The position numbers and the translations under genes are program-made. Positions 10,600-45,430 of a stretch of 64,000 nt of DNA are shown here, in pieces. Origin of the DNA: Cinnamomum chago (taxonomy: Eukaryota; Streptophyta; Magnoliopsida; Laurales; Lauraceae); NCBI GenBank assembly GCA_038049695.1, contig CP142456.1:18380501-18444500 (forward strand), given 5' to 3'. The stretch's first letter is position 1, and each line of letters starts with the position of its first letter. Below the pieces are notes generated by a model. That model saw nothing but the letters and a program-made list of their open reading frames with translations. It ran no database searches and was not told the origin of the DNA.

Positions 10600-10900
10600 A
10601 GAACGGATTTGACGGATCCTGTCCATTTCTTGGCCGAGCTGAAATCCTCTGCTCTGTGAACCAGACCAGACAGTCCACTGTACATGCTGAGTATCCATGG
10701 CATCCTTCAACCAGGCAGAGGTCCCTTCTTGTTATGGGTCCAATAGAAATGGTCCAGTAATCAACTAGCTGACAGACCAAAATCATAAAACTAGAGTCTA
10801 GGAAAATCATGAGTATGGATTGGCACCTAGTATCCCGTGTTTGGAAGGAGTGAACCCACGGGCTCCAGCCTAAATGAAAATTCAAACAACTTAAAATAAA
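10600..10900. repeat. Upstream part of duplicated CTNIP unit 1
   Basis: This stretch resembles 43185-43300, upstream of the second CTNIP gene: both share GAAATCCTCTGCT, an AGACC(A/C)...CA block, CATG followed by GAGT, and the CCTTC(A/C)A block in the same order. It places the left part of the duplicated segment about 1.5 kb upstream of the first gene. The 96-codon minus-strand frame here has no counterpart at the other copy and is not called a gene. Confidence 0.55.
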
Positions 10901-10920
10901 TATCTGCCATGTTTATAAGA

Positions 10921-11091
10921 TGTATTTAAATTTTACTCTAAAATGAGTTGGTCCCATTGTAAAATTAAGTATGTCATTGATGACACAATTAATGAATATG
11001 ATTAGTAATGCATAAGATAATGTTAATCATATTATCAATGATATGCTCAATTATGGTGTGACAAACTCATTTTGGAATAAATTTGAGGACA
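10921..11091. mobile_element. MITE-like element with about 33-bp terminal inverted repeats
   Basis: The left end TGTATTTAAATTTTACTC and the right end, read in reverse as TGTCCTCAAATTTATTCC, pair over about 33 bp, including CAAAATGAGTTTGTC. The 171-bp interior is AT-rich and codes for nothing. A related half-copy is at 45515-45600. No clear target duplication was found, so the superfamily is open. It sits in the far promoter of the first CTNIP gene. Confidence 0.6.
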
Positions 11092-11204
11092 TCCATGAAC
11101 AGGGGCAGCACTGATTTTAAGTGGCTCGGATTCTCAATAACGGAGTTCCACTGTGGATTAAAGAGGCTCGCCAGGACCGGGACGACTCTGTTTCTCTGTA
11201 GTGC

Positions 11205-12060
11205 AGGACTTCATCCTCTCGTTTTCCATCCACTTTCAAGGAAGCTACTGTGACCCTCTTGAAATGCAGGGCTGCATCATCCGTCTTCCATCAATTTACG
11301 AGGAAACCACTATGAATCTCTCTCAACTGCAAGGCTTAATCCTCACTTTCGAAAGTGCAGAGCTTCATCCATTCATCTACAAGGAAAAATCACTGCCTCT
11401 TTCCGTCACCCAGACGCGTTTCCAGGCTGTAGAATACCACACCTATGTTATTCATGACCCATTCAGTAATCAAATAAGAAACAATATCTTTTTATCTTAC
11501 CGTAATTCTTGTCCTCTAGAAAACCCACATCAAAGTAAATAAGAAGAAAAGAAAAAATCCATTTCTACATCCTTACTTTCATTATCTTACAAGGAAACCA
11601 CGGAGAATTTCTCTGTCAACTGCAGGGATTCATCCTTTCCTTTTCCATTAGTCTACAATGAAAATCTCGTCTCTCTCTACACACACGTTTCGTGGCTGTA
11701 TAAGACCACCTGTATTCTTCATCTCCTATTTTCTCTCCCAACTTTCAATAATCAAATAAGAAAACCATCTCTAACTCTTAATTGTACTTAGAAACTAAAA
11801 AAGAAGAAACAACAGAGCCATGTCTTCGTCCTCTGCTTCCATTAACTTGTAGGGAAGCTACAGCGACTCCGTCTCTCGACTGAAGGGCTTCATCCTTTCC
11901 TACTCCATCAATCTACATGGAAATATCACCGCCTCTTCTCTCTCTCCATCCCTCTCTACCTCCCTATTGGCTATAAAGTCCTGTACCTTCTTCTCCTATT
12001 ATCACTCCATCTTTCTACAATCAAAGAAGCCATTACTTCTATCTTCCTCCTACAGTCGTC
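11205..12060 (+). promoter_or_regulatory. Promoter and leader of CTNIP copy 1, built of tandem repeats
   Basis: Three copies of a core-promoter-like block start at 11425 (GGCTGTAGAATACC), 11694 (GGCTGTATAAGACC) and 11969 (GGCTATAAAGTCC), spaced 269 and 275 bp. Each is followed by ACC..TAT/CTTCTTCTCC, an ATCAAA(T/G)AAG block and a purine-rich leader like that before the real start codon. The third copy has the best TATA box (TATAAAG, 11972-11978), with an inverted CCAAT (ATTGG) directly before it and a start codon 139 bp downstream. The second has TATAAG at 11699; the first lacks a TATA. Shorter units of about 67 bp with CTTCATCC...CCAT...AAGGAA repeat from 11207 to 11410. Use of more than one start site is inference. 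Confidence 0.6.
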
Positions 12061-12116
12061 CTTCATAAAATCCAAATCAAAGAAGAAGAGAAAGACCCAC
12101 ATCTTCTTTCGTTAAG

Positions 12117-12374
12117 ATGGCCCTCCGCAGAATAGAAGCAACAGTAATCTTTCTCGTTGTGGTCATGAACGCGGGATCTCTCCTAGCATTGAGGCCTCTG
12201 GAAAGGGAGTTGTTACTGCCAAGAGACTCTTCGTTGTTCAATTCACTTCCCAAAGCGCCCTCGCCAGCTTTAGGACACTCCAATTGTACACACATCCCTA
12301 GTCCGGGTGGTGGTCAGTGCCCTAACAAAAGCAGAAGCAAGCCTTCAGGACGCCCTTTCGTTTCCGTTCCCTAG
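12117..12374 (+). CDS. CTNIP/SCREW-type phytocytokine precursor, copy 1 (85 aa)
   Basis: Single-exon gene for a small secreted peptide precursor. Residues 1-24 are a signal peptide with a hydrophobic core (VIFLVVVMNAGSLLA). Next come LRPLERELLLPRD, a variable spacer, and the C-terminal motif NCTHIPSPGGGQC, with two Cys at C-X10-C. The family, named for the Cys-Thr-Asn-Ile-Pro motif, is processed outside the cell into a short disulfide-bearing peptide that is perceived by HSL3/NUT and modulates immunity and water loss. The start is chosen because TTAAGATGG aligns exactly with the second copy. After the shared CPNKSR region, this copy reads on for about ten more residues than the other, ending SGRPFVSVP. 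Family assignment rests on motif and layout only. Confidence 0.75.
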   Translation: MALRRIEATVIFLVVVMNAGSLLALRPLERELLLPRDSSLFNSLPKAPSPALGHSNCTHIPSPGGGQCPNKSRSKPSGRPFVSVP

Positions 12375-12845
12375 CTTGATCATGATTCCTCTCTTAGCAG
12401 ATGCCATGACCACAAACACAAGATGCAGAATTAGGGGTCGTCTTTCCAGTTATTACTTCGCTCTAATATTTGCCTTCTTCCTGCGTCTACAGGCTGCTTT
12501 CCCACTTGAGTGTGGGCATTCCTATGGGTAGGGGCTCTCACTTCGGTCTCAGTCATTGGCAGGTAAAAAAGAGGAATTTTTATGGATTAATACCTCTTAA
12601 ATTTGATTTTCACTTGCAAATAACAAAATACATAAAAATCTCGCCAGAGCGCTTTCGTTGCAATTCTTTACTGTGGTACGTACATGACCCACGATATCAA
12701 TATCACATATTAAAGATGAGACCGTAAAGAATTGCAATCAAAGTACATGGTGGCATTTTCATGTCTTTTGTTTTTACACTTGGAAATCATTTTTTCAAAA
12801 AGGCACTAATTTGTAAAAACTCTTACTTAAAAACTAGGGGCCATT
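12375..12845. other. 3' flank of CTNIP copy 1
   Basis: Continues the similarity to the 3' region of the second copy for a short way after the stop (CTTTCGTTTCC...). It then becomes AT-rich with no recognisable gene. The open frames at 12307-12727 are out of frame with the peptide and show no family motif. Confidence 0.5.
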
Positions 12846-12864
12846 TTTTTGCATTTTTTTATGT

Positions 12865-13570
12865 TTTTCCCGGCGCTAAAAAAAACGCCGGCAAAGGTCA
12901 AAAAACGCCGGAGAAAACATTTACCGGCGTTTTTTATTGCGCCGGCAAAGCGCCGGAAAAAGTACGCCGGTAAAACCTTTTGCCGGCGAAATAAGGAAGC
13001 GCCGGCAAAAGTTTACACATTACCGGCGAAAAATAACGCCGGGAAAAGTTAATATTTCGCCGCAAAAAAGTGTTATGTTTTAAATAATAAATTTTTAAAA
13101 AAGATTTGCCGGCGTTATTTTCGCCGGTAAATGGTTATATTTTGAATAATAAATTTTTTAAAAACTTTTGCCGGCATAAATTTTCGCCGGGAAAAGTGTT
13201 ATGTTTTAAATAATAAATTTGTAAAAAATCTTTGCCGGCGTTACTTTCGCCGGTAAAGGGTGATATTTTAAATAATAAATTTTTTAAAAACTTTTGCCGG
13301 CTTTAATTTTCGCCGGGAAAAGTGTTATGTTTAAAATAATAATTTTTTAAAAAACATTTGCCGGCGTTATTTTCGCCGGTAAAAAGTTTATATTTTAAAT
13401 AGTAAATTTTTATAAATCTTTGCCGGCATTATTTTTCGCCGGGAAAACATATTTATTTTTCGTAAACTTTATTTAGAAAATTTTTTGCAGGCGCCTTTTT
13501 GCGCCGGGAAAACATGAATATAATTTTTTTTTAAAATTTTGCCGTACTTCTTTTAGGTCGGCAAAATATT
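12865..13570. repeat. Subterminal CCGGCG repeats, left side
   Basis: About ten units of roughly 65 bp from 13050 onward, each with an AT-rich filler (TTTTAAATAATAAATTTTTT) and the pair TTGCCGGCG...CGCCGG(T/G)AAA. From 12865 to 13050 the pairs are packed more tightly. The filler and the GGAAAA/GGTAAA alternation show two interleaved subtypes. Confidence 0.85.
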
Positions 13571-13720
13571 TATATTTTAATCAAATTTTTTTCCTATATA
13601 TAAATCATTACACTGAAGGTCTCCAATTAAAAAGACATTAATCTAATTAATAAAAATCTATCAACACAAAAATATACAATAATTGAAAAGGGCAACATCC
13701 AACCAAAATGAAAATTAATA

Positions 13721-14883
13721 TTATCCAATTCGTGTAGAGTTTAGTCGACTGTTAGAGAGGAACAACATTTTGGCTGCATCAGTAATCAAAGGAACAACAG
13801 CTCCTGCAGGCCCCAGTCTGCTCATGCTCAGAACCTGCAGCACATATGTCAAAGACAGGTCATACAACATTTGGTGGGACGGTGCTTTTTTTCTTTCTTT
13901 TTCAACCCCAAATCATTATCAACAACATTACTGGAATTAATAACCTTCAAACAACCAAAGGATTCATAAACATTGCATATTGTGTCACTCAAAACAGAAC
14001 TGAAACGTGGAATGTCTGAATTCATACCCCTGTTTCCTGGTAGAGATGACCCAGAAGATGGCATAGCTCCATCTGATGCTCCCAACAGCAGCAGCAAGCC
14101 TTCTCTTTAGGTGATGTTCTGGCACTCCTTCCATGCTATGGACCCCAGAAGCTATATGCCCACAAATGTTCCTCAGTTTCTACTAGAAAGATCATAAACT
14201 TCCCTATCTAAGACTTCAACAACTATAAAAAGCTTTTACCAAACAATAAAAAAAAAAAAAAAAAAAAGACCTATCAAAAGCAGCTTTTAGAGGTCATATT
14301 CAGGCACTGCACCTTGGTTCTTCAGCTTAGGAAACTGGGTTGTGGTATTGTTGAACAGATTTGGGTCTGAAAAACAGAGATTTTGAAGAATGGAGGAGCA
14401 AAAAGTGGCTTTTGCAATACCACCCTAGTTTCAGATATCAGGAGCCAGAAACCCTGCAAATAGAGATGAAATTTTCAGAGGTGACAGAAAAAATTTATCC
14501 TAAAAAAACCAGTAAAAAAAAAAATTTCCACTTTTATATGGAGTGGTTCTGTGCCATTGCTACCCCAGAAAACAGACCCAATCCAGAAAAGGCAGAATCA
14601 AAAAAGTTCTGGCACCTGGAAATTAAAGGCTGCTTATCTAAAAGAGATATGTAGCATCACTGCACCAGCATTAGCAACCAAAAAGGTTCTGAAATAGCAG
14701 AAAAAGGGATCATGGAAGACATTTAAAACACTAGCCTTAGAATATGTTTGGAAGGCTTAAAATATTTATATTGAGAGAGTTTGAGACAGATTCAAAGTGG
14801 ATGCTTATTACACTGACCTTGACTTGCAGCTGCAGGAATTTGACATATTCAATGATCTCATCAAACATTGACGCCTTGTCCGT
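13721..14883 (-). pseudogene. Captured bHLH transcription factor fragment (LRL/UNE12-like)
   Basis: Two exons with correct splice sites on the minus strand. Exon 14818-14883 (66 bp, phase 0) encodes TDKASMFDEIIEYVKF and on to LQLQVK, the helix 2 end of a plant bHLH domain. It is bounded by CTGCTGCAG before and GTCAGT after. Exon 13721-13834 begins after GTGCTGCAG and encodes VLSMSRLGPAGAVVPL, the strongly conserved segment after the bHLH domain in subfamily XI (LRL1-3, UNE12), then departs from the family and stops. The basic region and helix 1 exon were not found up to the right end. In the host these factors act in the nucleus in root-hair and fertilisation programmes; this copy lacks DNA-contact residues and lies inside a transposon. 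Confidence 0.8.
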
Positions 14884-16401
14884 CTGCAGCAGGGGGAAAA
14901 AAGAAGGGTTCATTCTACAATATATAACAAGGTGCTAAGAGATATGTAGCATATTCCATACAAACTTCAACCATGCAGAAACTAATCACAAGTGAATTCC
15001 CTATGATATTCCTTGTCCTCTTTACTTAATAAATGGATCATATAGCAAAACCCAATTTTTTAATCCATGATCCAATCAAATTATCAGGGTAGAACTGCCA
15101 CTTTAACATACACTTGATTTTGGGGCATGGATATATGTTGGAAAAGCACCTAAGACTGGCATCGATGCATGCAATTCAGCATGCAAACAACGAGTGGGGT
15201 GCATGCAAACAGTGAATTTTGGGCACAAAATTGAGGATGCAAACCATATTCAAATTGCATGAAAGTGGATGGATTCTCAGCACTAAAAATAACGAGTAAA
15301 ATGAATGGTGTGCAACATGGCAATAAAGATCTTGCAAATGGGTGTACTGCAGAGGAATTTTAGTATCCAAACTGTGGATAAAATGAATGGTATTAGGCAT
15401 TCCAACAGTAGGCAAAATGCATGGATTTCAGCATGCTAACAGTGAAGGGAAAGCATGCTAGCAGTGAATAGAGTGAAAGAAATTCAGTAAGCAAATCACA
15501 TTGAAAAAGTGGGTGCCATGCATGGAGTTCCAGCAACCAAACAATGAATTGGGTGTATGATATTCAGCTACCAAACAATGATTTGGGTGTACATTCAAAT
15601 GAAACCCATTTCTCATCACATTCCCACATATCCAAACAGGAAAAAAAAAATCCTGACACGATCTTCTTGGCCGGTCTTCACAAAATCCAGTCAGGCAGCC
15701 ACCCATTCAAATCCAGCCAACCAAATCTCCAAACACATAAATTTCCTTCATCTCTCCTCATCCACCAATGTATATATAAAACCACATCAAACCACACAAA
15801 CATAATCCAAATTCAACAGTCATCCATGGATGACAAAAAATTTCTTATCCATCCACACCAACATATAATAGTAATTACTATCATCAAAAAGGTAAGAAGT
15901 TTTCCTATGTCCAACCACACCAACAAAATAAGTGGTAATACAGTCATCAATATCAAGGCCTATAGTGCCATTCATTGAAGTTTGTATAGGGATATCTTCC
16001 ACTCTGAGAGATTTCTTTTTTCTTTTTATTTATTTATTTTTTGGTTTCTTTTTTTTTAATAGGTAAAATGACTTGAGCCCACAAAGAAAGAAAGGAGGTA
16101 CTCTGTACACACAATATTCGTTCATATGACTAGCACCAAAAAATCTGCATGAGACGCAAAAAGGTCTCTCAGATGATCCTAGCATCTATTTTTTACCACA
16201 TTAAATGTGGGGCACCGCATGCTATTCAGAAATTGCAAGTAAGCGACAGAGAAGCACATGTTCATCGGCATGAAAATATTAAAGCATGTCCTGTACCATG
16301 AAACAGAATATTATACTGACATTACTGATCCATACTCAGGCATATTTATTGTAGATTCGCTTGTAGCAACATGAGCAAAATTATATTGCTAGCATACTTA
16401 C

Positions 16402-16463
16402 AGAAGTTGGTACCAGCAGAGATCGAGATTCCTTCAACGGTTCCCATGCCCTTAAACCATCAG
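16402..16463 (-). pseudogene. Unidentified captured exon
   Basis: A 62-bp exon-like block between a good acceptor (AAAATTTCAG) and a consensus donor (GTAAGTAT) on the minus strand. One frame reads ADGLRAWEPLKESRSLLVPT. I do not recognise the family. It may be another captured host exon or part of the element's own spliced transcript. Confidence 0.35.
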
Positions 16464-17110
16464 CTGAAATTTTAGTACACTTTTCTAACATCAGCCAGAC
16501 CACATAAAAGGAAAACATCCCTAATAACCAATTCAAGGTAATAAACCATTAAATACCAAACCATCCACCTGAAAATCAAGAAGAACTTATAAGAGGAATC
16601 ATCAACTGCTACAAGTGGTTTTCCATCCACCATAAAGAAATGAAATGAGAATATTCATAAGGATTCATATTAATATTCAAGTATCCTTACAACATTAAAA
16701 GCACCTTACTAGGTCCATTGGAAAATAAAACAAACATGATAACATTCCACTCTGTAACAACATTCAAAACATTGATGATTCCTGATTTCATGTGGCTGCA
16801 TCTTTTCCACATGGAATCACACACCCAAAAATCTTCTTCACTTTTCATTCAAACCTGCAAAAAAAAAAAAAGCAAGTTCCACAATGTAACAACATCCATT
16901 AAAGTGGTACATAATCTATAAACCCATGTCCAATTGGTTTTGAAGGGACTCTTTTCCAAGCACAAATCAAATGGCAATTATAGAAGACCTGAATTAGATC
17001 AATCTGTCACAAATTCCATGCCTTGAACACTTTTTGTGCACTCTATATGTATAGCTCCCTATATTCTTATCTACATTTATCCTTAATTAGAGATAGTAAT
17101 TAGAGATAGT

Positions 17111-17310
17111 AATGAACGTGCCCGTAAATACCATTTTGAAAAGAGTAATCATATACAAAACCTGGAGAAGTCGCATCTTGAGCTCCACCAGAGGTGCCAT
17201 CCCCACCCACAAGGGAACTTGGGTCTATGCCTACGCGCTCAGCTAGGGAGAGGACTAAGCCCTCAAGAAGTCCTACCTGCTGCCGCAATTGAACAATCTC
17301 AGGATCAGGG
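17111..17310 (-). pseudogene. Coiled-coil coding fragment, possibly CACTA second gene
   Basis: The minus-strand frame reads DPEIVQLRQQVGLLEGLVLS and then LAERVGIDPSSLVGGDG, ending near a possible donor at TCTCCAG/GTTTTG. A Leu-heptad helix before a Gly/Ser-rich tail resembles the C-terminal part of TNPA-like or Transposase_24 proteins encoded by CACTA elements. The match is by style only. Flanking sequence from 14900 to 16400 and 17400 to 19850 shows no further exons I can name, only AT-rich introns or filler. Confidence 0.3.
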
Positions 17311-19854
17311 CATATCCGATTCTGGGTTGAGGCTAAAGTGGACTTCGTGCGAATTCCAAAACCCTTATTATGTACAATGTATACCTAGCTATATTGTATT
17401 TATAAATATGATATGAATACCGAAGGGGACAAAAAAAAAAAGAAGCAAGAAAAGCAAAAGTTAATGTTATAGATATTCAGATGTTAATGTTGATGTTTGG
17501 AGTTTAAACAAAGGGTGAAATCAATGATCAGCATATTAGAGGATGATTATTGATAGTTTTAGGCCAAGAGAAAATCAAGAGATGTCATTTCACAGATGAT
17601 ATGGGTTTGTGTACAAGAAAGAAATGGCTCCTATGAAGTATGGGTAAATGTATTTTACAATAAAATTTTGGTTGATTGACAGTGAAGCAAAATTCAGAGT
17701 ACCATGACATGACTGAAGTAAACTAGCGAGGCATGAAAAGATACACAGCATGTTGCTTGGGTTAACAATAAGCACCACGTGCTCTTGTTCTCCTTGATTA
17801 CTTATGTGAAGCTATGGATATGTTCAAAACATCTAGAATTAAGGCCCATTAGGAGCTCCAAGCACATATCCTTTTTGTTGCTTGACTTTCCTTTTGTTGG
17901 GTGTTATTGCACTGTAAATTATTTTCCAATAAACCCGTGGCATTGAGGGTGTTATAATAGTTTCTCCTAGAGGCTACATTTGGATCAATCAACTTTTTGC
18001 AAACAGGACAAGCACGCTTTAAATTTCTTGGTTATTTGGAATTTTAGACATTCTACTTCTGGATAAATGCACAAATTGATGCCTTTTAGGTGTTAAGGAG
18101 TCCTGTACCCCAGAAATCAACATGTGCAGGGCATTTATTTTCTTTTACTGATTTGAACTTCAAGTAAAATTAAATTCAAAATCTTGAATCAACACGCCAT
18201 GCCAAACATTTATGCTAGATTTTAGCATGATAATAAATACCAGGAAACCTCTTTCAATGGGAATACATTTCATGGAAAATAATAGCTTGTATGTAACGGA
18301 TGGCAATGGGGGTGCTAAATTAGAACTACTAAAATCTCCTGTACTGATTATAAAACTGTATCTAAAAGTTCCAGCTTATAAATAAACGAAAGATGAAAAT
18401 TTTCATCCAATGACTTAGGAAAATCTTCTGTGAATCAGTACATTAGACTCAAACATTGAACTCAAATTTTGAAATAACTATTTGTTAGAACTCAAACATT
18501 GAACTCATATGTTAGTTCATTCTTTAGAACCAAGCTAATCTATAGAAAAAGAACCCAAAGAAACTTCCACACGTGGGAACATATTTCTTTATTCTACATC
18601 CAAAAACATTGCGAAAGTGTATTCTAGCATTAGATTTTAGCACTTTTATGATTTTGGTTTAGCCTGAGACATAAGACTTTTCAGTGCAAGTGGAACGTTT
18701 TGGCCATTATACCATAAGTGGTTGTTAAGTGGAACGCAAACATCCACATAAAATGGCTCTTTCCATTTCTGCTTCCTCTTTTGTGGCCTTACACAAACAA
18801 GCCCAGAGAAATCTTAAGTTGAAAGATTGGAAATCCACTGTAGCCTCTAGGACATCTAATCTCAGTCAACTATTACTTATTATTTGTAGAATTAAATGTG
18901 ATATCTTCTTCCCTTTTTTTATTTTAAACAACAAACGAATAAAATTTTCAACCTTTCAATGCAATCACCAGCTTCTCAAAAACCTTACAAGAACTATCAT
19001 AAAAAGTTAAGAAAAAAAAAAAAAAAAAACCTTCTACAAGAAACAGAGCTCATCCGCCACCACCAAAAGTATTTAGAATTGTTGTATACAACTCAATGCC
19101 ACATCTAAGAAAAAAAATCAATTAAATCCATTTCAAGAAGAAGATAAAAATCAATAGCCTGAAAAAAATAGTGTTATAAAATGCACTCTTCAAAGCTTTA
19201 TCTAGCAACCAGCTCTTGAAAGTAAGCACCATATGCAATTTACTAAATCTATGGCACACCATTCTCTTCATATAAAAAAGGGACCAAACTAACAGCTTTA
19301 GAGAAGTGAATAAACCATGTATAATCATTTCATGGTAAAGCAACTAAGGAACATTCAAAAGAAGCAGGGGCCATAGACTGAAATTCACAATCCAACAAAA
19401 AATGGAAAACTTGTCTGTAGCATCAAAGACTACTTAGACAATCTCATTGAAAGGTACTGAGCATACAACATACAGGTTGGTAATGTCAGGAGGACAGGCC
19501 CAGAAATATTTCATATCTGTTTCTTTTACTAGAAAATGGTAGACATGATTCATATCTTTTCCATCATAAATTATGTAAATGATTTGCAATAAGCCTGAGA
19601 ATCTTAATTACCAGAATTCAACATCACTCACTATAGAAATCATCGAGAATCAAAATAGCTTAAGGAAAAAAAAAAAAAAACCATGCCAAAATTAAATAAA
19701 TGAAAAAACAGATTTTGGGTTCCATTTCAAGTAGCGAATGAATGAATGAATAATATTAGTTGATAAAATGCATGGCCTGAGACATCTGGACAAAGGGTTT
19801 TTATACTAAAAGCAATAGAAAGTTGGACAAAAAAGAAGTCCAGATCTAGTATAC

Positions 19855-20280
19855 CTGCAACCGACGCCGAGCTTGGGCGAGACGGAGATGGGCGCTGCGA
19901 GCTTGGGCGCTGCGAGACAGAGAGGGAGCTTGGGCGCTGGACAAGGGAGATGGGCGCTGGACGAGGTGAGAGGGGCCAGGGACCGAGAGGGAGATGCAGA
20001 GAGATGAGGGAGATGGACCGAGAGGGAGATGGGCGATTTCTTTTGTGATTTGGGGAAATGCAGAGATGAGGGAGAAGGACCGAGAGGGAGAAGCAGATGA
20101 GGGAGATGGACCGAGAGGGAGAAGCAGAGATGCAGAGATGGACCGAGAGGGGGCGCTGCGAGACGGAGAGGGAGAAGCAGAGAGATGGGCGCAGAGAGAA
20201 GGTTTGAAGCAGAGAGAGATGATCGAAGCAGAGAGACGGTTTGAAGCAGAGAGAGAGGGTTTCGATAAACATATGATGGC
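19855..20280 (-). repeat. Purine-rich (GA) leader tract in the CACTA-like element
   Basis: Degenerate units of about 35-45 bp around GACCGAGAGGGAGATGGGCG and GAAGCAGAGAGATGG. Read on the minus strand it is CT-rich and lies just inside the subterminal repeats, as the CT-rich tract at 28790-29200 does in the second element. This is the expected place of a promoter and 5' leader for the captured exons. Long open frames on both strands are low-complexity Ser/Leu/Pro or Glu/Arg products and are not genes. Confidence 0.6.
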
Positions 20281-20329
20281 TAGAATGCAGGATAGGATGG
20301 GATTTAGTGAATTACAATCAATCCCGGCG

Positions 20330-20646
20330 CAAATAGTCCGCCGGCAAAACCACTTCGGGGGTAACACAGCGCGGGATGTCCCAAATGAAGGCGCGCCGTG
20401 ACATTTGCCGGCGAAATATAAATACGCCGGGAAAAACTACTTTTGCCGGCAAAAATTCGCGCCGGGAAAAGTTTTTAACAACTTTTTTATTAACACAGTT
20501 ACCTTTCCCGGCGAAAAAAAAATCGCTGGGAAAAAGTGACCTATACCGGCGTAAAAATTATTTTCGCCGGGAAAAGGTATACTTTCCCCGGCGTTTAATA
20601 TTTATGCCGGGAAAAAACGCCGGGAAAAATGTAAATTGTTGTAGTC
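20330..20646. repeat. Subterminal CCGGCG repeats and right terminus
   Basis: Inverted pairs of GCCGGCG or CCCGGCG with CGCCGGGAAAA, tighter than on the left side, running to the terminal AAATTGTTGTAGTC. The foldback element starts only four bases after the end. Confidence 0.8.
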
Positions 20647-20649
20647 ATT

Positions 20650-20922
20650 GGGTGGTTAAAAATGAAGATCAAAGGTAAATTTTTAAAAACTAGCATAAAC
20701 TAACTTGTTCTTTTGATTCTATTTTACTAAAAAAATATTTATTGTATTACATTCATTTTTAGAAATTCACCTTTGATATATACTCATTTTCAATATCAAA
20801 GGTGAATTTCCAAAAATGAATGTAATATAATAAATATTTTTCTAGTAAAATAGAATCAAAAGAAGAAGATATTTTATGCTAGTTTTTAAAAATTTACCTA
20901 TGATCTTCATTTTTAACTACCC
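20650..20922. mobile_element. Foldback MITE, 273 bp, nearly perfect hairpin
   Basis: The left arm starts GGGTGGTTAAAAATGAAG and the right arm ends CATTTTTAACTACCC. The two arms of about 130 bp pair along almost their whole length around a short centre near 20785-20795. Only a handful of mismatches and small indels are seen. A transcript would form a long hairpin, the kind of MITE that can feed 24-nt siRNA or young miRNA genes. No target duplication is clear, so the superfamily is open. Confidence 0.8.
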
Positions 20923-20929
20923 TATATAT

Positions 20930-21300
20930 TCAATTTCTATATATTTTAATGCAAACCAACATGGTCTAGTTTAGATATATTTAGATATTTTCAATAGGGT
21001 TGAATTAGAGTAAGTTTCTTATTTACTCTTATGTATTGTTCTTTATTTGTTATTGAAATTGAAAATAATAAATTTATGTAAGAGTACCCAATTTCTTTTT
21101 TTCAATGGCATCAGCCATCAGACCCATCTTACTTATAACCACGTTCTCACAAATGGGGTGCCATCCCACCATCTTTCTTTTCTCACTCTCTATTTTTATC
21201 ATTGCAAATAAAAAAGATTGACAGACTTAAGTAATTAGTGAGTCACCAATTTTGCCAGACTCAAAATGAGCGAGAAGCATCTGATCATGGGACATATAAA
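20930..21300. repeat. Downstream part of duplicated CTNIP unit 1
   Basis: Aligns with 45020-45430, downstream of CTNIP copy 2. Shared blocks in order are ATTTTAATAGG/ATTTTCAATAGG, TTGAATTAGAG, GAAATTGAAAATAATAAATT, GGCATCCCACCATCTT or its variant, and TTAGTGAGTCACCA. The CACTA-like element and the foldback MITE separate this flank from its gene. Confidence 0.75.
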
Positions 21301-21510
21301 TGCAAAACCGTTTCTTTTAATTTGTATCATCATGTTGCAAGAAATAGGCATTCGTTTGCAGTATTTCTGTTAGATTTGTTCATCTATGTTGGCAAGGAAT
21401 GCAAACGGTTGGGTTTAATTGGAACCTGCATCTATCCACTTTTATTACGGGTAGGTGTGGTAGTGTTTTTCTCAATGTTGGGACAACTACATATGGGTTT
21501 TTATTTATTA

Positions 21511-23940
21511 CTAGTGGAGCCCTGCATGTGCAATGTACGTGCACCGAACACACAGTTTTACTAAGAAAATCTTAAAAAAAAAAAAAGTTCTTAAAAAATT
21601 CAGTAGAAGCTTCAATACATTTAAAAATCAAATTTCAACAGAAAATGAGTAATTGTAAATTGCAAGGCCCGTGCAATGTCCAAATACAGTTGACACTACT
21701 TTTTTCCTATACATTTGAAAATAATAAAATAATGATATAGTGAGAAAAATGAGATCTCAAAAGAAAATCGATATGGAATTTATATAATTTTTTGAGGATA
21801 TAAATCACATATTTGTAGATATTTTATCATGGATGTGTACAAATAAATTTAAATTTACTTTATTTAACATGTCAGGTCAACTTATCAATTTCCTGGTAGA
21901 CTTGACTCACTAATGTTGGAGTCTAGTCGAAAGCATAGTCAAATTGATAACCAGATGAGCTTACTGTTCTAACCAATTACAATGAACATTATACGTTCAC
22001 TACAAAATCAAATTTTATTAAGGAAAAAAATTTAATTATATCCTACCTAAGGACATCAGAATAAAAAATTTTAGTTGGTGGTTTTAGTCTTAACTTACAA
22101 AGAATAATAACATCTCACACCGACCGCCAAGAATAATGAAGTAATCCGGCTTATTCTCAAGCGATAGGGATCAACAATAGTGGAACTATGATATGAACTT
22201 TGACGGGTAAGATTTGCAGAGCACTTGTTGATCAATATTAGTATTTAATATGTACTTTATTTTATTTTATAAGACAAACCACTATTAGGTAAAAAGAGGC
22301 AATACCTCTCCAAGAGTCAGCATCTATACAAAGTGCTATATTTTATACCTTGTAAGAAAAGACTAATACAAAGTAATCATAAAAGTTCAGTTAAATGGAA
22401 GCTCACAAATAGAGATATCCATAGGGGAAAAATACGAAAAACCAAAAACCGACAAATAAAAATCTGCCAAAAGAATTGGACCTTCCTCTTAAGAAATACA
22501 TATGAATGTAACTCAGGTATTCTAGATCAACTCTTCTACTATGTTCTGTTTAGAGGATGAGAGTGATGATAAAAGTAAGAAAAATTCGAAATGAAAAAAG
22601 ACAACTGAATTTGTTGCAGCTCAACATCAAATAGTTATTTTAGTTGTTTATACTTAAAACGATCACTTCATTCACTGACTCTAAAGTTAGTAGTAACGCT
22701 AGCATAACAAACAGTTTCTATAAGATTCCCATTTTCCCTTTAAGGAAAGGCATAACGCTTCATTGAAATATATGAAAAGAAGAAGAAGAGGCATAATTCT
22801 TCCTTACACAATTACTCAAAGAGGAAAAACCTCATACCCACAAAATTTCCTGCATTAAAAATCTTGTAGTATCTAAATAAGAAGACTGTTAAAGGAAAAT
22901 TTAAAAAAGAAGAGCGAAAAAAAAACATTTGAGATAGATTCCAATCTTATCCACATTTTCCTTTTCTTTTCTCCACCACCTTAAAAAAAAAAAAACAAAG
23001 AAGCTGAAAAACAGTTACTTGATTTATTGGAATGTATTAAAATGAAATTTAATTACTTTTAAAATATCAGCATATACTCAATAGAAGAGATTAAAAAAAT
23101 TATTAGGATTGTGTGTGCCAAGTTTGGTCTAGATCCAGGTTCATTTGGGTATAGGAGGGGGTAGTTAGCAATTTTTCAGAGAATTTAGGGGGCTTTTTTG
23201 TAATTTTAGATTTTTTGACATTATGGTACCATTGGGTAGATATTTTTAATTCACTAAACTTTAGTCTTCTAGCTCATCTTCATGATCCGGATCCTCAAAA
23301 TCCCTCTAAATCCAAGCCTGACCCAAAGTCAATTTTAGACAAATTGGAAACTTCCCATGATGTCCCAATCTTTATCCATCCCATTCAGTCTCTCTTATCT
23401 CTTTTCTTTCTCTTTCCTTTATCTCATTCTATTTCTTCCCTTACTACATCTTACTCGCTTTTTTAATAGGGTATAGAAATATAAGATAATATATATAAGA
23501 ATAATACTAAGTGAGGCGCACATCTTGCATTTTCTTGGGCAGGTGTATAGTGAAAAAGTATTATACTTTTCTCTCTTTTATATAAGGGTATAGAAATATA
23601 TCTAATAATAATACAAAGTGGGGCCCACATCTTGCATTTTATTGGGCAGGTGTGTAGTGAAAAAGTACTACACTTTGCTCTCTTTTATATAAAGGTATAG
23701 ATATATAAATATATCTAATAATAATACTAAGTGGGGCCCACATCTTGCATTTTATTGGGCATGTGTGTAGTGAAAAAAGTATATCATCTTTCTCTCTTTT
23801 ATAAGAGTAGAGATATATTTAAATAGAATAATAGAATATAAATATATAAGGGTGGGCCCCACAACTTGCATTTTATTGGGCATGTGTATAGTGAAAAAGT
23901 TATCATCTTTCTCTCTTTTATAAAAGTAGATAGATATAGC
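21511..23940 (-). mobile_element. Non-autonomous Helitron, about 2.4 kb
   Basis: On the minus strand the 3' terminus ends CTAG followed by T at 21511, preceded by an imperfect hairpin (stem TGCACGT...ACATGCA, 21523-21543), as Helitrons require. The 5' end near 23940 reads TCTATCTACTTTTATAAAAG, with A just outside, so the A/T insertion rule fits. No Rep/helicase is encoded. The interior from 21560 to 23460 is AT-rich, without recognisable exons. Exact 5' boundary is uncertain because several similar 5' ends are stacked there. Confidence 0.65.
23468..23940 (-). repeat. Four tandem copies of a Helitron 5' end
   Basis: Copies begin (minus-strand 5' side) near 23585, 23692, 23803 and 23940. Each has TTTTATAAAAGAGAGAAA or a close variant, then TTTTTCACTATACAC, TGCCCAATAAAATGCAAG and GTGGGGCCCAC. 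Periods are about 107-137 bp. Such repeated 5' ends can come from replication slippage during rolling-circle transfer or from serial end capture; this is inference. Confidence 0.7.
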
Positions 23941-24304
23941 CAAGTTGGGTTCAGGGCAGGTTTGGGGTTTTGTTTGTCTACCTCACCCCTGCCCTGTGTA
24001 TATAATGTAAATATTTATTAGTGAAGTTATGCACGAACTTATCCAGTGTTGAGCAACAGCTTAAGGCATTAGGATGAAAAATGTGTGTTTGATCTCTACA
24101 ACACTTGTTCATGTCATGCATTATATATTTTCAAATTTTAGAACCTTTAAAATTGGAGCCCACCTGATCCCATCGAGAGTTTGATATCACATTCAAATGA
24201 CCCATCATGGGGCGGGTCGGATTTGAATGAGATAAATTTTTTGATTGGGTAGGTTTAGGTTTAGGTTTACTTCGATGGCTCGACCCATATCAATCCGTGT
24301 GTGG

Positions 24305-25380
24305 TGTCACATCCCGGTCTCGAGATTACCTGGCCAAGGGCAATTCACGAGGTGTGACACGCGTACTCCCGTGCTCATCACACCTGTTTCGGATCAAGTG
24401 TGAGTCACGATGGAGATAAATCCACTTTTCACATGTGTGATATTCTCACAGACACCTGTCTTTGTACATTTAATAGCAGAAGCATCAAACAGAACATACA
24501 AGGTGTCATATCATGAGCTGTCCCATTTTCAAGTTCATTACACAAAAGATGAATTCAGTACTATTAAGAAGTAGAGAATTAAAACTTACTCTACCTCAAT
24601 AATACAAAAGTACCTATATACGTCACTACCAAAAGTAATATCTAGTTCAACTTCACAAAAGTATTCTATCAACAAAGAGGAAATATGACGCTCTCTGAAG
24701 ACGAGAGCTAGACAGCTCCCTCAGCTGTCCACTTTTCTAAGCCTGAAGGTACCTCGATTGCCTCCTCCTCTCCCTCCTCAGTCTCCTCAAGACCCGGATT
24801 GGGACCTGTGTCTATAACACCAAGAATAACTAGTGAATACAACGATTCAACTGAGTATAGGCAATAATCCAATTACACATGGTGTATCAAATTCAGAATT
24901 AATAATAGAAAATTATATAAGAGATCATGTGAAGTAAAACTAGGCAATTGTGCAATGAGATTTAAATCATGCTCAAAGATTCAATAATGATTGGAAGTTA
25001 ACAAACTAGTTGGTAAGCACATTAGCTAAATCCTCTTAAAGGGGGCATGCGTTTTGGGATGTCACCAGTGACCCGGCCAAAGGTTCAACTGGCTACCCGA
25101 GTTCTGAAGTTCTGGTGCTCCGGATTGTCTTCTGCGCAGAGACATTCACAATCTAAACCAAGAGCCAACCCCGTCTGGTATCGTGCGATCAAAGCTAAGT
25201 AGTACCGACTCATTTAAATCAATATGAAACTGAACTTGAGTAGACCAAACTAATCCTTTCATACTACAATTCAATTCATATACTTTCACAAATCTACTCA
25301 AGACTTCCCAATTTATGATACAGTTAAAACACACTAATATTAAGATGACAATGCAGGTAATAATATAAAAGGAGTACAAT
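24305..25380. mobile_element. LTR-derived fragment starting TGTCACATCCCGG
   Basis: Begins TGTCACATCCCGGTCTCGAG, a form common at the ends of plant Ty3/gypsy LTRs. It continues with sequence typical of a non-coding LTR, with no open frame. I could not find its other end or a second copy. Old and broken. Confidence 0.4.
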
Positions 25381-25519
25381 ATATAATATATATATATATG
25401 GGAGTTGCTCTGGTAATAGAGCCTCCCACCATCTCTATGAGAGAGCTCAATTTGGGCCATTCTTTTTCATTTGGGATCCAACGGTTCATGATAAAAGTAA
25501 AAAAGCAGCCGCGCAGGAG

Positions 25520-25890
25520 AGAAACATCACATGCCCATGTCAGAACTTCCGCCTAAATTTGGACGAAACCCTATCCTTTCTCTTCTCAACCGGTGCACCC
25601 CTCCATTCTGTTCTGTCGCCCGACCATGCTGCTTAGACTGACCAAAACTGCCGCCCAAAAGAGAAGCTTGATGATGCTGTGATGATCCATTCTGTCCTCT
25701 TCGAAGCCCGATGACGCTGCACCACTCCATTCTTCGTTCTGAGATTCACCGGACGATGCTTCGAAGCCGCCTGATCAAAACTGCCGAAGCGAGAGTAGTT
25801 CGCTGTGAAGCCCAAAAGAGAAGCCCAACGACGCTGTGACGATCCATTCTCTTCTCTACGAAGCCCAACGACGTTGCGACGATCATTTTT
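25520..25890. repeat. Degenerate short tandem repeats, GAAGCCCRACGACGCTG units
   Basis: About five imperfect copies of GAAGCCC(A/G)A(C/T)GACGCTGTGA followed by CGATCCATTCT, spaced about 50-65 bp. The two short minus-strand frames over this stretch are repeat products. An unusually GC-balanced island between AT-rich blocks. Confidence 0.5.
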
Positions 25891-30297: not shown

Positions 30298-31054
30298 TGC
30301 AATGTATGACCTTGTCGTCGTTTTAGCCCCCGGTGGGCCATTGAAGCTCCTTGTCGAGTTGGCATCCAGCCGGGATGAGGAGCTTCCGGCGCTTATCTAT
30401 GAGGCCCGCCCCACAGTCTCTCGCGACGCGGTGCACGCCCCCAGTTCATCGCCACCCCATGAATTGCCGTCTCGGTCTGGTCTTATGGTTGGTGGTGCTA
30501 CGGAGACTATCTGTTGAGCTTCAATCCCTTTCGTACCCAAACAATGCAGATTATTCCATGGTTGAAATTGAAGATGAGGAGAATTCACCCTTGGTTGTTG
30601 CTAATTCTGATGCAATCAATGAGCAACAACTATTACTTAGGACCCGAAATTTGGAATTTGGTGTCAGTGGGGATTCTGGAATTGGAACTGTTCATGATGA
30701 AATGTCACCCCTTGTTGAGGTTATGAATTTGGAGGATGAGAGAGCACGAACAGGGAGAGGCAATGAGGAGTTTGAGATGTCGATGAGTAGAGGTATTAAG
30801 CTGGGTTTGGGGGATTTTGTATTCTACAGTGTTCTTGTGGGCAGGGCTGAAATGTATGATCTGATGACAGTTTATGCTTGTTACCATGCAATCATATCTA
30901 GACTTGGGTGCACTCTTATTTTGCTGTCAGTGTGCCGTCGTGCTTTGCCTGCACTTCCCATCTCGATTGCATTAGGTGTCATGTTCTATTTCTTGACTCG
31001 GCTGTTATGGAGCCATTTGTTGTCGGGGCATCAACAAACTTGGTGATGTTCTGA
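30298..31054 (+). pseudogene. Presenilin pseudogene, C-terminal two thirds
   Basis: Presenilin is the aspartic protease subunit of gamma-secretase in endomembranes. Recognisable blocks are [20 protein letters not shown] (helix 6 with the first catalytic Asp in YD), [17 protein letters not shown], a long acidic loop, [19 protein letters not shown] (helix 7 with the GLGD catalytic Asp, 30804-30815), [16 protein letters not shown], and [20 protein letters not shown] with the PAL motif at 30948-30956. Helices 1-5 are absent. The frame changes between about 30460 and 30515, and again near 30999, after which the family's MEPFVVGA ending lies in another frame and closes at 31054. The usual GRAAMYDL reads GRAEMYDL. 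Plant presenilin genes are often intronless, so DNA capture and retrocopy cannot be separated. Confidence 0.88.
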
Positions 31055-39661: not shown

Positions 39662-42169
39662 TTATTTAAAAGATATTTTTCTAGCTTTTTGAGATGCAAA
39701 AATATTGATTAAATTTTTATATTCAAGTTTTGTTAATATATCTTTTTCAATAGATAATATAGCTAACCCATTTAATCTTTCTTGTGACATAGTTGATCGG
39801 AGATAAGATTTTATTAATTTAAGTTTCGAAAAACTTCTCTCCGCTGAAGCAACTGTTACTGGTATTGTTAACAATATTCTAAAAGCTATACATGCATTTG
39901 GAAAACAATCTAATCGTTTTATATAAGTTAGGGTTTCAGCTGGAGTATTAATTTCAGATTGTAGAACTTTTCTTAATACAGTCAACTCTTGAAATAAATC
40001 TAAACCATCAATATCAGAAAATAAGTCATGCTTCAAAAAAGTTTCAAGGTTAAGACAATAACTTTTCAAACTATCATCATCTAAGGATTTTAATTTTTTA
40101 AAACAAAATAAAAAACCAAAAATATTTTCATATATTTTGAATTGTTCAAATCTACTCTTGATCGAAGAAATAGCTAGATCAACTATAAATAAAAAATACT
40201 CAATTCTAAAAGACTCTTCAGCTGATAGTGTTACTGCATTCTCAATTGTATCACCAAATTGTTTTTTCCTAAAAAATTTACGTTTTTATCGAAATACTGG
40301 TTCTATTTCCATTTCAAGTGCAATCTCTTTTGATGAAATCAAAGCAGAGTAAAATCCATTTTCTCTATATGATTCCAAAAAAGAAATAAGTCCTTTTAAT
40401 TGATCAATAGCAACATCAATATGCATGTCTTTGGATTGTAAATTTTTACTAACTGTGTTAACAGCAAATAATATATCATACCAAATATTCATACCCAATA
40501 AAAATTCAAAGTTTTCAATCTCATATGTAGCTAAGCATGTGGCTTCACTTCTTGTTTTAGGATCTTCACTAATTTTTGCTAATTGAATTAAAGCATCTCG
40601 TATTTTCGGAGCCTGATACTTGATTGCTTTAACACTTTCGATACGACTTTCCCATCGCGTTTGAGATAATGATTTAAGAGTTAACATAGATATATTATCT
40701 TGTAAAATTTTCCATCGTTTTGTTGAAGAAGAAAATAATGAGTATATACGTTGTAATACTCCAAAAAAAGATATAGCTTTAGGACAAGAGTTAGCTATAT
40801 CACAAAGTACGAGGTTAAGATTATGACATCCACATGGTGTGTAAAATGCTCTTGGATTTATATCTAGTAGTCTTTTTTGTACACCTTGATGTTTTCCTTT
40901 CATATTAGATCCATTATCATATCCTTGTCCTCTTACATCATTTACATCAAGTCCAAGTTTTTTATTTACATTTATAAGTTCATCAAAAAGGCCTTTCCCA
41001 GAGGTATCATCTACTTCCGAAAATTCTAAAAAATATTCTTCTATTTTTATTGGACTTGTTGAAATATCTACACATCGCAGTATAAGAGTCATTTGTTCTT
41101 GATGACTTGCATCAGGAGTACAATCAAGTATTACTGAAAAATATTTTGCTTCTTTAATCTTATTAATTATTACACTTTTAATTTCAGAAGCTAACATTTG
41201 TATTAATTCATTTTGTATCTTATGCCCGAGATAATGATTATGAATTTCACCATCTTTAATTCGTCGAACATGTTCTTGCATTATTGGATCAAATTCCGCA
41301 ATCCTTTCAATTAAACTTAAAAAGTTTCCATTGTTGTCTTGATATATTTTCTCATTCTTCCCACGAAATGCCAAATTATTTTTAGCAAGAGTTTTTACCA
41401 CAGCTAAAATTCTTACAAGTACTTTTTTCCAATAATCTTTCTCTTTGTTAATTTGTTCTTGAATATTTTCATCAATAGTTTTATTTTTTGACAATCTTAT
41501 TTCTAAATCAACCCATGAATTCATGTTAGCAATATGTTCATTAGTTGTTTCATGAGTTTTGAGCTTATAACTAAGATTTTTCCAATCTTTAGTTCCTTCA
41601 TTAACTAATTGACTTGTGCTAGGTTTTGAATTGAATAACTTACAACAAAAGCAATATACTCTATCTAAATCTTTTGAATATATTAACCATTTTCTATCAT
41701 GCTTTTCTCCGTTTGACAATTTTCGAGTGTAATATGTAATAGAAAAATGTCTATTATTTTCATCATTAGGAAAGTCTAAATTATTTTCCCTAATAGGACC
41801 TCTTTCAACTAATAAGTCTCTTAATTTTGTGTCAATATTTTTCCATTGTCCTGGATCATAGATATTTATTGGAACATAATCTAATAGTTCACTAACATGT
41901 TCACATTCTTTATCATTTTCTACTTCACTAACAAATTTACATTCTTTACCAATTTCATTTTCTTTTAAATCTTTTTGGCATTCCGTTGATTTTTCTATAT
42001 TATTTAATTGTTCAATCGTTGAATCATCATTTGAATTTTTTGTTGTTGTTGGTTTATCACCAATAACAAATTTATCGAGTGCTCCTTTTTGAGATTCAAT
42101 AAATTCATCTTGTTTTCTTTTCTTTTTTTTACGTTTTTCACATCCAGAATCATATCTTCGAGTAGACAT
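39662..42169 (-). pseudogene. hAT transposase, TTF-zinc-finger/ZMYM1-like, one premature stop
   Basis: An 835-codon frame, open except for one TAA at 40286-40288. Order: basic Lys-rich start (CEKRKKKKRKQ); an acidic linker; a TTF-type zinc finger with YCFCCKLF and later GTKDWKNLSYKLKTHETTNEH; the DUF4371 catalytic region with YFSVILDCTPDASHQEQMTL, RGQGYDNGSNMKGKHQGVQ and TPCGCHNLNLVLCDIANSC; then TRWESRIESVKAIKYQ. After the stop come NTPAETL..., IPVTVASAERSFSKLKLIKS and LNGLAILSIEKDI, the C-terminal hAT dimerisation domain. The stop lies ahead of this domain, so the truncated product would lack dimerisation. Frames before and after are in the same register, so nothing else breaks it. Plain hAT superfamily, not a domesticated gene, as it lies within intact ends. 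Confidence 0.93.
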
Positions 42170-42462: not shown

Positions 42463-42466
<4 letters not shown>

Positions 42467-43174: not shown

Positions 43175-43320
43175 AACATGCCATATGTGTAAGTCTTCGC
43201 CCAGCAGAAATCCTCTGCTTTCTTTCTACGAACTAGACCCACCGACGTGCATGTGGAGTTCACATCGCAACCTTCCACTAGTTATAGATGACCGCGCTCC
43301 TCCTCCTTGTGGGTCCTGTA

Positions 43321-43825
43321 GGTGTAGCATTCGACCTGATTATTTTTCATAACGCACAAGCCTGGAAAATAACATACGGGAGAGCCTCTGCCGTGCCTCT
43401 CCCAAATGCTACACTCTTTCCTTTCCTCTTCCATTCACTTGCAAGGAAGCCACTCCAGCTCTTCCCCTCATCTGCGAGGCTTCTTAGGGTGTAGCAATCG
43501 ACCTGATTATTTTTCATAACGCACAAGCCTGGAAAATAACATACGGGAGAGCCTCTGCCGTGCCTCTCCCAAATGCTACACTCCTTCCTTTCCTCTTCCA
43601 TTCACTTGCAAGGAAGCCACTCCAGCTCTCCCCCTCATCTGCGAGGCTTCTTAGGGTGTAGCAATCGACCTGATTATTTTTCATAACGCACAAGCCTGGA
43701 AAATAACATACGGGAGAGCCTCTGCCGTGCCTCTCCCAAATGCTACACTCCTTCCTTTCCTCTTGCATTCACTTGCAAGGAAGCCACTCCAGCTCTCTCC
43801 CTCATCTGCGAGGCTTCTTCCTCTC
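43321..43825 (+). repeat. Three 167-bp tandem repeats upstream of CTNIP copy 2
   Basis: The block ACCTGATTATTTTTCATAAC starts at 43334, 43501 and 43668, an exact 167-bp period. Each unit runs through GAGAGCCTCTGCCGTGCC, CTTTCCTCTTCCATTC and CATCTGCGAGGCTTC. Units differ at only a few sites, so the array is young. The last unit ends about 220 bp before the start codon. Short open frames in the units repeat with the array and are not genes. Confidence 0.95.
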
Positions 43826-43876
43826 TTCTTCTTTGAATCAACAAGCTGACCTCTTTCTCCTTCACGTTACCTGTTT

Positions 43877-44047
43877 TATAATGGTCCTATGCTCCTATTT
43901 TCTTCATCTCTCCCATTCACATTCCCAACTTTCTTTAACCAGATCTAAGAGACCACTGCTTCTATCTTTCTCTAACTCTCATCCGCATCAAAGAAAAGAA
44001 AACGAAGAAGAAGAGGAGGAGAAGGACCGATGTCTTCTTTTGTTAAG
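43877..44047 (+). promoter_or_regulatory. Core promoter and leader of CTNIP copy 2
   Basis: TATAATGGTCCTATGCTCC at 43877 corresponds to TATAAAGTCCTGTACC at 11972 of copy 1, including its downstream CTATTxTC. A purine-rich leader (AAAGAAAAGAAAACGAAGAA) precedes the start codon in both genes. An upstream in-frame ATG at 44030 is absent from copy 1. Confidence 0.6.
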
Positions 44048-44266
44048 ATGGGCCTCTGCAGAAAAGCAACAACAGTCCTCATCTTTCTTGTCCTGATCAT
44101 GAATGTGGGAACTCTCCAAGCATGGAGGCCGCTGGAAAGGGAGTTGTTACTGCAAAGAGATGTGGTCGTTCTTCAAGTGCCGGTGCCACCTTCAGGGAAC
44201 TCCCATTGTACGAACGTCCCAGGTCAAGGTGATGCTGACTGCCATAACAAAAGAAGGAAGCCATGA
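44048..44266 (+). CDS. CTNIP/SCREW-type phytocytokine precursor, copy 2 (72 aa)
   Basis: Small secreted peptide precursor, single exon. Signal peptide of about 25 residues (TVLIFLVLIMNVGTLQA), then WRPLERELLLQRD, a short Val/Pro spacer, and HCTNVPGQGDADC with two Cys at C-X10-C, ending HNKRRKP. The motif and layout match CTNIP/SCREW peptides, ligands of HSL3/NUT with roles in defence and water balance. The start at 44048 is preferred over the in-frame ATG at 44030, because TTAAGATGG is shared with copy 1 and the signal peptide then has a normal N-terminus. With the upstream start the product has 78 residues. It is closer to the canonical motif (CTN[IV]P) than copy 1. Confidence 0.78.
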   Translation: MGLCRKATTVLIFLVLIMNVGTLQAWRPLERELLLQRDVVVLQVPVPPSGNSHCTNVPGQGDADCHNKRRKP

Positions 44267-44269
44267 GAG

Positions 44270-45010
44270 GAAGCTCTTTTGTTTCCAGCCCCTTGCTACG
44301 ATTATTTTTTGAAGGGGTTTTGCATACGTAGATAAATGCCCTTAAAAATCATGCTTTTGCTTCAAAGTTGTTGACTTTTAAAATATTTTCTGCATAGGTT
44401 CCTACCAACTAGGATTGGCAGAAATTACCATTTTGGCCTTTAAAAAATTTGATATCGTGTGCAAGATATCACACAAAATCCTCCTTAAAAAAAAATAATA
44501 AAAAAATCCTCCCCTGAAAACCCCAAAAGTAGCCCTTAGTTTATTTGGAAAAATTTAGTTTTACTGCAAATGTTCTTCCATCTTTTCCTATTCTTTCTTT
44601 TCACCTTGCCACCATGCCCCTTGCACAAAATTAAATTTCGATTTTTCATCCATGAAAAGCTAAAGAATATTTTTTTATACCACGCTAAACTTCCTTTCGT
44701 ATTTCTCGAAGCTATGAGTTTAGGGCATGCATACCTTTTTATGATGAGTGACATAGAACAATAGGAGAAAGGTTTTCACAAATTAAAAAAGAGAAAACAA
44801 AGGGAAAAAAGGACTTTTCATAACGTACTAAAGTAGAAAGTTGTGTATGCTTGAAATCTGACAAACACATGTTATCGCACAAAATAAGAGCAAAAAGGTG
44901 ATTTTTCAACCATCCTATTTTTCAACAACCCATTCAGAATTTCTTCAAAAGTCAACAGCTATCATTCAAAAGTCAGATTTAAGGACAATTGTACGGCTAA
45001 AATCCCTTCT
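44270..45010. other. 3' flank of CTNIP copy 2, no further gene seen
   Basis: Shares a short 3' stretch with copy 1 (TTTTGTTTCC...). It then becomes AT-rich. Open frames at 44536-44764 on both strands are short and unrecognised. Confidence 0.5.
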
Positions 45011-45019
45011 TAAAACTAG

Positions 45020-45430
45020 GTTTAGGCATATTAAGATATATTTTAATAGGATTGAATTAGAGTTTTAATTAGATTAAGTGTGCTATTTTATATCATTCAT
45101 TGTTTGTTGTTTTCTTTTTTCTATGTTGAAGTTAAGTGTATATTGAAGATCTCGATCATTCATTACTGTTCATTATTTCTTAGTGAAATTGAAAATAATA
45201 AATTTATGGAGAGATGTAGTCTCTAAACATATAGTCTCTAATTAATATATTTTCTTTTAATTAATGATATCAAAGCCATCGTTATTCCAGCCCCTGAGGG
45301 CATCCCACCATCTTCTCTCTATTTCTTTTTATCTTTTTTCTTTAAAGGAAACTATTGACGGATTTGAATTAGTGAGTCACCAGTTGTGGTTGACTCAAAA
45401 TTAGCAAGATGCATTGGATGACACAACATT
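45020..45430. repeat. Downstream part of duplicated CTNIP unit 2
   Basis: Counterpart of 20930-21300: TTTTAATAGGATTGAATTAG, GAAATTGAAAATAATAAATT, GGCATCCCACCATCTTC and TTAGTGAGTCACCAGTT occur in the same order. Here the flank is about 750 bp from the gene and not split by a CACTA element. Confidence 0.75.

Follow-up and report, generated by a model that had tools for sequence, protein, structure and literature searches.

Probable CTNIP/SCREW-type peptide genes from an old duplication in Cinnamomum chago, within expanded ligand and HSL3-like receptor families

The window analysed here is a 64,000-nucleotide stretch of contig C6 (C6:18380501-18444500) from the genome of Cinnamomum chago, which spans 1.06 Gb in 14 contigs. 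It contains two small genes, designated A and B, that very probably belong to the CTNIP/SCREW family of secreted signalling peptides, derive from an old duplication and sit within expanded families of both these ligands and their HSL3-type receptors. The ligand family occupies about 100 places in the genome, most of them clustered, and the HSL3-like receptor gene is present in at least 13 copies.

Two small genes of the CTNIP/SCREW type

Gene A (12117..12374, plus strand) is an open reading frame (ORF) of 85 amino acids with a CTHIP core, and gene B (44048..44266, plus strand) is one of 72 amino acids with a CTNVP core. B can also be read as 78 amino acids from 44030 to 44266; since the ATG at 44048 is the start common to other members of the clade, we regard 44030 as an extra upstream ATG. 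Both ORFs are open, and both contain the leader, the RPLEREL block, the CT[HN][IV]P motif and the C-X10-C spacing that an earlier note on the sequence of the window had attributed to them. The leader of each has a hydrophobic 12-residue core above 1.8 on the Kyte-Doolittle scale with an upstream methionine, and the two proteins are 49-51% identical.

According to the available part of PMC9191895, Arabidopsis has five CTNIPs, in which the active part is the C-terminal 23 residues and two cysteines are required; the filter used there for the family allowed 9-11 residues between the cysteines. Consistent with membership of this family, A and B are shorter than 150 amino acids, have cysteines within the 9-11 residue range and possess a CTNIP-type core.

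A CTNIP profile built from 62 members, all of them outside the A/B clade, detected A at E 3e-16 and B at E 5e-18 in a search of the 714 ORFs of the window together with their reversed forms. Only A and B were recovered before any decoy, the next hit being a reversed decoy at E 0.1. We also searched PDB with a 12-member family profile that included A and B; it matched 9w1s_C (E 1.9e-6) and 9wum_B (E 0.02), and the matched stretches of both chains contain CTNIP. Both entries have AT5G25930 as chain A, a protein that the accessible part of PMC13056886 names as HSL3, the CTNIP/SCREW receptor. The chain lists suggest that 9w1s and 9wum are receptor-ligand complexes.

These profile searches bear out the CTNIP/SCREW identity proposed in the earlier note, and A and B are, judged by sequence, genuine new members of this known family. 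Chance motifs as the source of the A and B features are ruled out by the shuffles and flank-score background given below and by the clade-free profile. In the mechanism that we propose, the leader of these short precursors would be removed on secretion, and the C-terminal part with its two cysteines, probably joined by a disulfide, would be the ligand. It would then bind the ectodomain of an HSL3-type leucine-rich repeat (LRR) receptor kinase and recruit a SERK co-receptor, leading to stress signalling.

Shared flanks and successive duplications

Comparison of the A and B regions by blastn gave a single colinear chain in one orientation. The genes match at 12020-12376 and 43943-44297 (72%), and a block present twice upstream of A (at 11576 and 11836) matches 43762 upstream of B (65%). 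The downstream flank of A (20969..21280, plus strand) is homologous to that of B (45020..45414, plus strand) in three pieces: 20969-21011 with 45020-45063, 21034-21078 with 45164-45208, and 21162-21280 with 45301-45414. These pieces lie 0.75-1.15 kb behind B, as against 8.6-8.9 kb behind A. Local alignment scores were 45 upstream, 226 in the gene and 81 downstream, each reached by none of 300 background segments of the window. Upstream and downstream flanks shared in the same order and orientation, as described in the earlier note, were thus found, and they support a probable descent of A and B from one duplicated block.

The region upstream of A (11532..12029, plus strand) comprises two blocks of ~240 bp that are ~70% alike, part of which recurs upstream of B. 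The corresponding region of B (43321..43819, plus strand) comprises three 167-bp tandem copies containing the block found upstream of A. Both genes have this promoter-near block in tandem ahead of them, as two diverged copies at A, in each of which a TATA-like stretch can be made out by eye, and as three near-identical copies at B.

The possibility that the shared flank is a dispersed repeat, raised in the earlier note, found no support in searches of either kind. The upstream flank of A has two near matches genome-wide, A itself and a sister copy, A', and the downstream flank likewise has near matches at A and A' only, up to ~21497; because both searches missed the diverged flank of B, they are informative on near copies only. 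At a blastn sensitivity high enough to align A with B, none of 114 other loci (277,163 bases in total from this genome) matched the flank, and across the window flank matches fell at the A and B regions only. A dispersed repeat is rejected as far as the near-copy searches, the 277-kb sample and the window reach.

A' lies at C6:18303077, 89.5 kb upstream of A and in the same orientation, and is 98% identical to A over 2.24 kb. A and B are therefore not mutual closest relatives, A' being closer to A by both search and tree. None of the 255 coding bases differs between A and A'. Within a block from 11219 to 12418, whose limits were chosen after inspection of bins, 8 of 1200 bases differ, as against 35 of 1037 (3.4%) outside it (Fisher p 3e-6). 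Selection acting on the promoter and the gene could account for this low divergence, as could gene conversion.

The synonymous divergence (dS) of the mature parts of A and B is ~0.57, which makes their split old and far older than that of A and A'. A tree of 71 rows unites A, A' and B with genes at C6:17.90, 17.95 and 18.16 Mb in a single clade (support 100/99), within which A and A' group with B (95/91) – though the tree has few columns and long branches, those of A and B among them, which leaves the deeper forks unsure. The old tandem duplication of the earlier note stands with regard to the single duplicated block and the age of the split; from order and orientation we infer that the two genes originally lay side by side.

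A' (L002) matches window positions 10619-12855 and then 20646-21641, with 21 of its bases at the junction lacking a counterpart. As A' lacks 12856-20645, the simplest reading is that this stretch was inserted into the window copy. The inserted 7,790 bp (12856..20645) have GCCGG-rich ends, of which the right reads as CACTA-like by its terminal motif; the left lacks the motif. The empty site in A' upholds the claim that a transposon-like insertion widened the gap between the duplicated parts. A palindrome resembling a miniature inverted-repeat transposable element (20647..20925; 133-bp arms, 93% complementary) and the start of a dispersed repeat (21497..22789; dozens of copies among the matches listed, mostly 83-88% alike) are common to A and A', and so predate that duplication. 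Farther right the match extends, pairing window 21641-23723 with C6:18304831-18306915 (94%) and window 24041-25640 with C6:18326192-18327815 (96%), so that A' carries ~19 kb without counterpart in the window. In the history that we propose, the A/B pair would have arisen by the old duplication inside a cluster at C6:17.9-18.4 Mb, A would have been duplicated again recently to give A', and the 7.8-kb CACTA-like element would then have entered the window copy between gene A and its downstream flank.

Expanded families of CTNIP-like ligands and HSL3-like receptors

Genome searches at E up to 10 found 59 places with A as query, 20 with B, and 45, 94 and 86 with three other members. Merged, these give at least 100 distinct CTNIP-like places on six contigs; the merged count leaves out rows weaker than ~E 0.1 and already includes every place found with B, and all these counts are lower bounds. 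The best E value is ≤0.01 for 99 of the 100 places and ≤1e-5 for 92. A further query with a canonical member found 66 places to E 1, none of them new below E 0.1 and one new in all (C4:5082679, E 0.34). Most places are clustered, with 39 at C6:69.4-70.0 Mb, 25 at C4 30.8-31.5 Mb, 18 at C3 122.0-122.5 Mb and nine at C6:17.9-18.4 Mb; the remainder are five on C7, two on C10, one on C1 and one at C6:67.2 Mb. The nine-place cluster includes six RPLEREL genes, namely A, A', B and three more, and these three together with three other CTNIP-like genes lie within ~0.53 Mb. Members of canonical type are located at C6:18.21 and 18.26 Mb. The two-gene locus of the earlier note gives way to this larger family: overall, its interpretation is partly supported and its frame is too small.

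We read 71 of the 100 places as letters. Six or seven of the other 29 have stops or are fragmentary; the remainder are copies within arrays or of paralogues, with scores like those of the ones read. A hydrophobic stretch and a cysteine pair with X9-11 spacing occur in 61 of the 71 ORFs, whereas shuffling the part behind the hydrophobic stretch (200 shuffles) gave the pair in a mean of 7.7 and a maximum of 15 of the 71. A C[TS]xxP core is found in 41. The nearest relative is ≥98% identical for seven proteins, 90-98% for 29, 70-90% for 26 and <70% for nine. Several groups have altered cores, such as CSYTP, CSNSS or a moved first cysteine. In the C6:69 Mb group (L104, L107-L110, L112, L114) the position of the first cysteine has shifted with respect to the TN/TS core (PPCRSGGTNGPGGKC, PPCSSDGTSAPGAGGHC), a change that would alter the loop of the predicted mature peptide.

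A tandem array with a period of ~14.3 kb lies at C6:69.84-69.96 Mb, where most units consist of one plus-strand and one minus-strand CTNIP-like gene. Most copies of each gene kind score identically in searches, which may reflect amplification in the very recent past, gene conversion or copies inflated by the assembly. On the last of these alternatives, unmerged haplotypes placed in tandem would mimic both the array and the A/A' duplication, making the expansion in part an artefact. The identical scores within the array, the 98% identity of A and A' over 2.2 kb in one orientation with a rightward match continuing at 94-96%, and the round-number size of several contigs, as from scaffolding, all speak for it. 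We nevertheless consider it quite improbable: B lacks any near-identical counterpart, its next best match being at 59%, the window copy has a 7.8-kb insertion absent from A' while A' has ~19 kb absent from the window, the nearest relative reaches 98% for only seven of the 71 proteins and fails to reach 90% for 35, and CTNIP-like places are spread over six contigs.

Several further results weigh against the reading of A and B as CTNIP/SCREW members within an expanded family. Searched against PDB, A alone recovered no CTNIP chain, B alone reached the CTNIP chain only at E 0.25, and a five-member RPLEREL profile only at E 0.019; no Pfam family matches A or B. With direct PDB matches of A, B and their clade this weak, CTNIP membership rests on intermediate members. 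Ten of the 71 ORFs fail the cysteine rule. The leader shows nonsynonymous divergence (dN) at or above dS in some RPLEREL pairs (0.40 and 0.36 for A and B), and mature dN/dS spans 0.34-1.50 among the C6:69 Mb genes, so that some family members may be undergoing decay or diversification. Assembly could also have inflated the number of near-identical copies, such as A/A' and the 14.3-kb array.

The weak matching of the RPLEREL clade to HSL3-associated peptide chains would be expected if its genes formed a related but functionally different cysteine-pair family that no longer signals through HSL3. Arabidopsis CTNIP5, divergent and inactive according to the available part of PMC9191895, offers a precedent, and many of the HSL3-like genes described below could have altered specificity. 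Such a change of function seems somewhat unlikely to us, as A and B retain the CTxxP core and the cysteine pair, and B and its relatives retain a PVPPSG-type approach.

Selection bears on whether A and B are instead decayed or unexpressed CTNIP relics, retained only as side effects of tandem amplification and transposon activity. Compared with its relatives, B is missing four residues and the C-terminal tail, transposon-like DNA surrounds both genes, and some members elsewhere have stops or dN/dS near 1. However, mature dN/dS is below 1, at 0.26-0.68, in all 10 pairwise comparisons of the five distinct RPLEREL genes (the comparisons reported have dS <1.2 and four or more differences across the mature region; A' is omitted as identical to A). 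The ORFs of A and B are also intact, with cysteine pair and motif retained, and no coding base separates A from A', even though 3.4% of bases differ outside the gene block. We thus judge that A and B are unlikely to be relics, and favour functional CTNIP/SCREW members.

We searched for receptors first with a HAESA kinase sequence, which found 11 places on C2:108.3-109.0 Mb among the 138 matches listed. The ectodomain of one C2 gene is colinear with AT5G25930 at 513 bits, compared with 396 for HSL1 and 370 for HAESA; against the FLS2 entry 4mna it totals 514 bits over three repeat registers, of which the best single one scores 211. The kinase of the same gene matched 15 places at E 1e-70, comprising 11 on C2 that match over the full length of the kinase (one with a stop), two fragments on C2 and two places on C1. 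At least 13 HSL3-like genes with a kinase N-lobe are therefore present. In a tree, AtHSL3, the two C1 genes and the 11 C2 genes form one clade (99/99), with the HAE/HSL-like L057-L059 outside and AtHSL3 on a long branch. These three are the only places ≥66% identical to the HAESA query among the 138 matches listed, so that by this one search no like expansion of HAE/HSL1/HSL2-type genes is seen.

The C1 matches end near the point where HAE/HSL-like genes also break off. Their reading frames run out of the kinase at GYVAPG and GYIAPG, such as an intron would produce, whereas the C2 genes continue as GYIAPEY or nearly so. The C2 cluster thus lacks an intron in the kinase domain that is apparently present in the C1 copies. 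The intron state of the C2 cluster (L051-L056, L060-L064), set against the C1 copies L081 and L082, is as if the cluster came from an intron-losing copy, perhaps a retroposed one.

Aligned with AtHSL3 residues 201-615, the ectodomains of 12 genes (L063 left out) are 50-53% identical. Five show no gap, five lack ~418-487 (~70 residues) and two lack ~322-487 (~166 residues); within the C2 cluster, 7 of the 10 members compared lack ~70 or ~166 residues. Ectodomain dN/dS exceeds kinase dN/dS in 15 of 15 pairs – though some do so narrowly, the pairs are non-independent and one kinase dS is saturated.

Other features of the window and known systems

Between A and B lie a hAT-like transposase ORF (40289..42169, minus strand; Pfam DUF4371, E 6e-21) and an ORF (30351-31046, plus strand) matching the C-terminal part of presenilin (PF01080, E 4e-38), either a gene or a fragment. 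ORFs for gag, reverse transcriptase and integrase lie within 2617-9241 on the minus strand, and a Helitron-like ORF with a Pif1 2B-domain lies at 55096-55806, also on the minus strand (both by Pfam). An ORF at 14737-14913 (minus strand), guessed by eye to be a captured basic helix-loop-helix exon, found no Pfam support and was rejected. Scans of the window found no Rfam match and no tRNA.

Compared with HSL3/NUT (AT5G25930), whose clade includes the receptor genes found here, the differences are their number, the missing kinase-domain intron of the C2 cluster and an LRR ectodomain shortened in 7 of 12. The SCOOP family radiated by tandem duplication, and its peptides are not known to carry a cysteine pair. 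SCOOP-MIK2 of Brassicales offers a likeness as a phytocytokine family confined to one order, as far as the available part of PMC11331138 describes it, and differs in having another peptide (SxS motif) and another receptor. Like Arabidopsis CTNIP1-5, as covered by the accessible part of PMC9191895, the C. chago genes encode a short precursor with a leader, a C-terminal CTNIP-type core and two cysteines 9-11 residues apart; they differ in number (~100 places as against five), in the RPLEREL block that follows the leader of A and B and in the altered cores of several groups. Roles of CTNIP/SCREW-HSL3 in drought and stomata appear as review statements in the available parts of PMC13056886 and PMC13157962. 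A literature search on CTNIP/SCREW and HSL3/NUT found no title on such an expansion, in a search for which the subscription literature was mostly beyond reach.

The scale of the expansion, of ligand and receptor alike, is the surprising part. Tentatively, and as a possibility that we hold below even chances, ~100 ligands and at least a dozen receptors may be co-diversifying into separate ligand-receptor channels. Such a radiated CTNIP-HSL3 network would provide channels for individual pathogens or tissues, for example, some of them with receptors of shortened ectodomain, in place of the single-receptor module of Arabidopsis. Ligand and receptor of one module are expanded in the same genome, as opposed to the grasses, in which, according to the available part of PMC9191895, HSL3 is expanded and no clear CTNIP is found. 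The natural series of ligand cores and part-ectodomain receptors would allow a direct test of receptor-ligand co-evolution and of the HSL3 binding surface. More than 40% of CTNIPs are unannotated according to the same part of that source, and the family described here shows how many such small genes can escape annotation.

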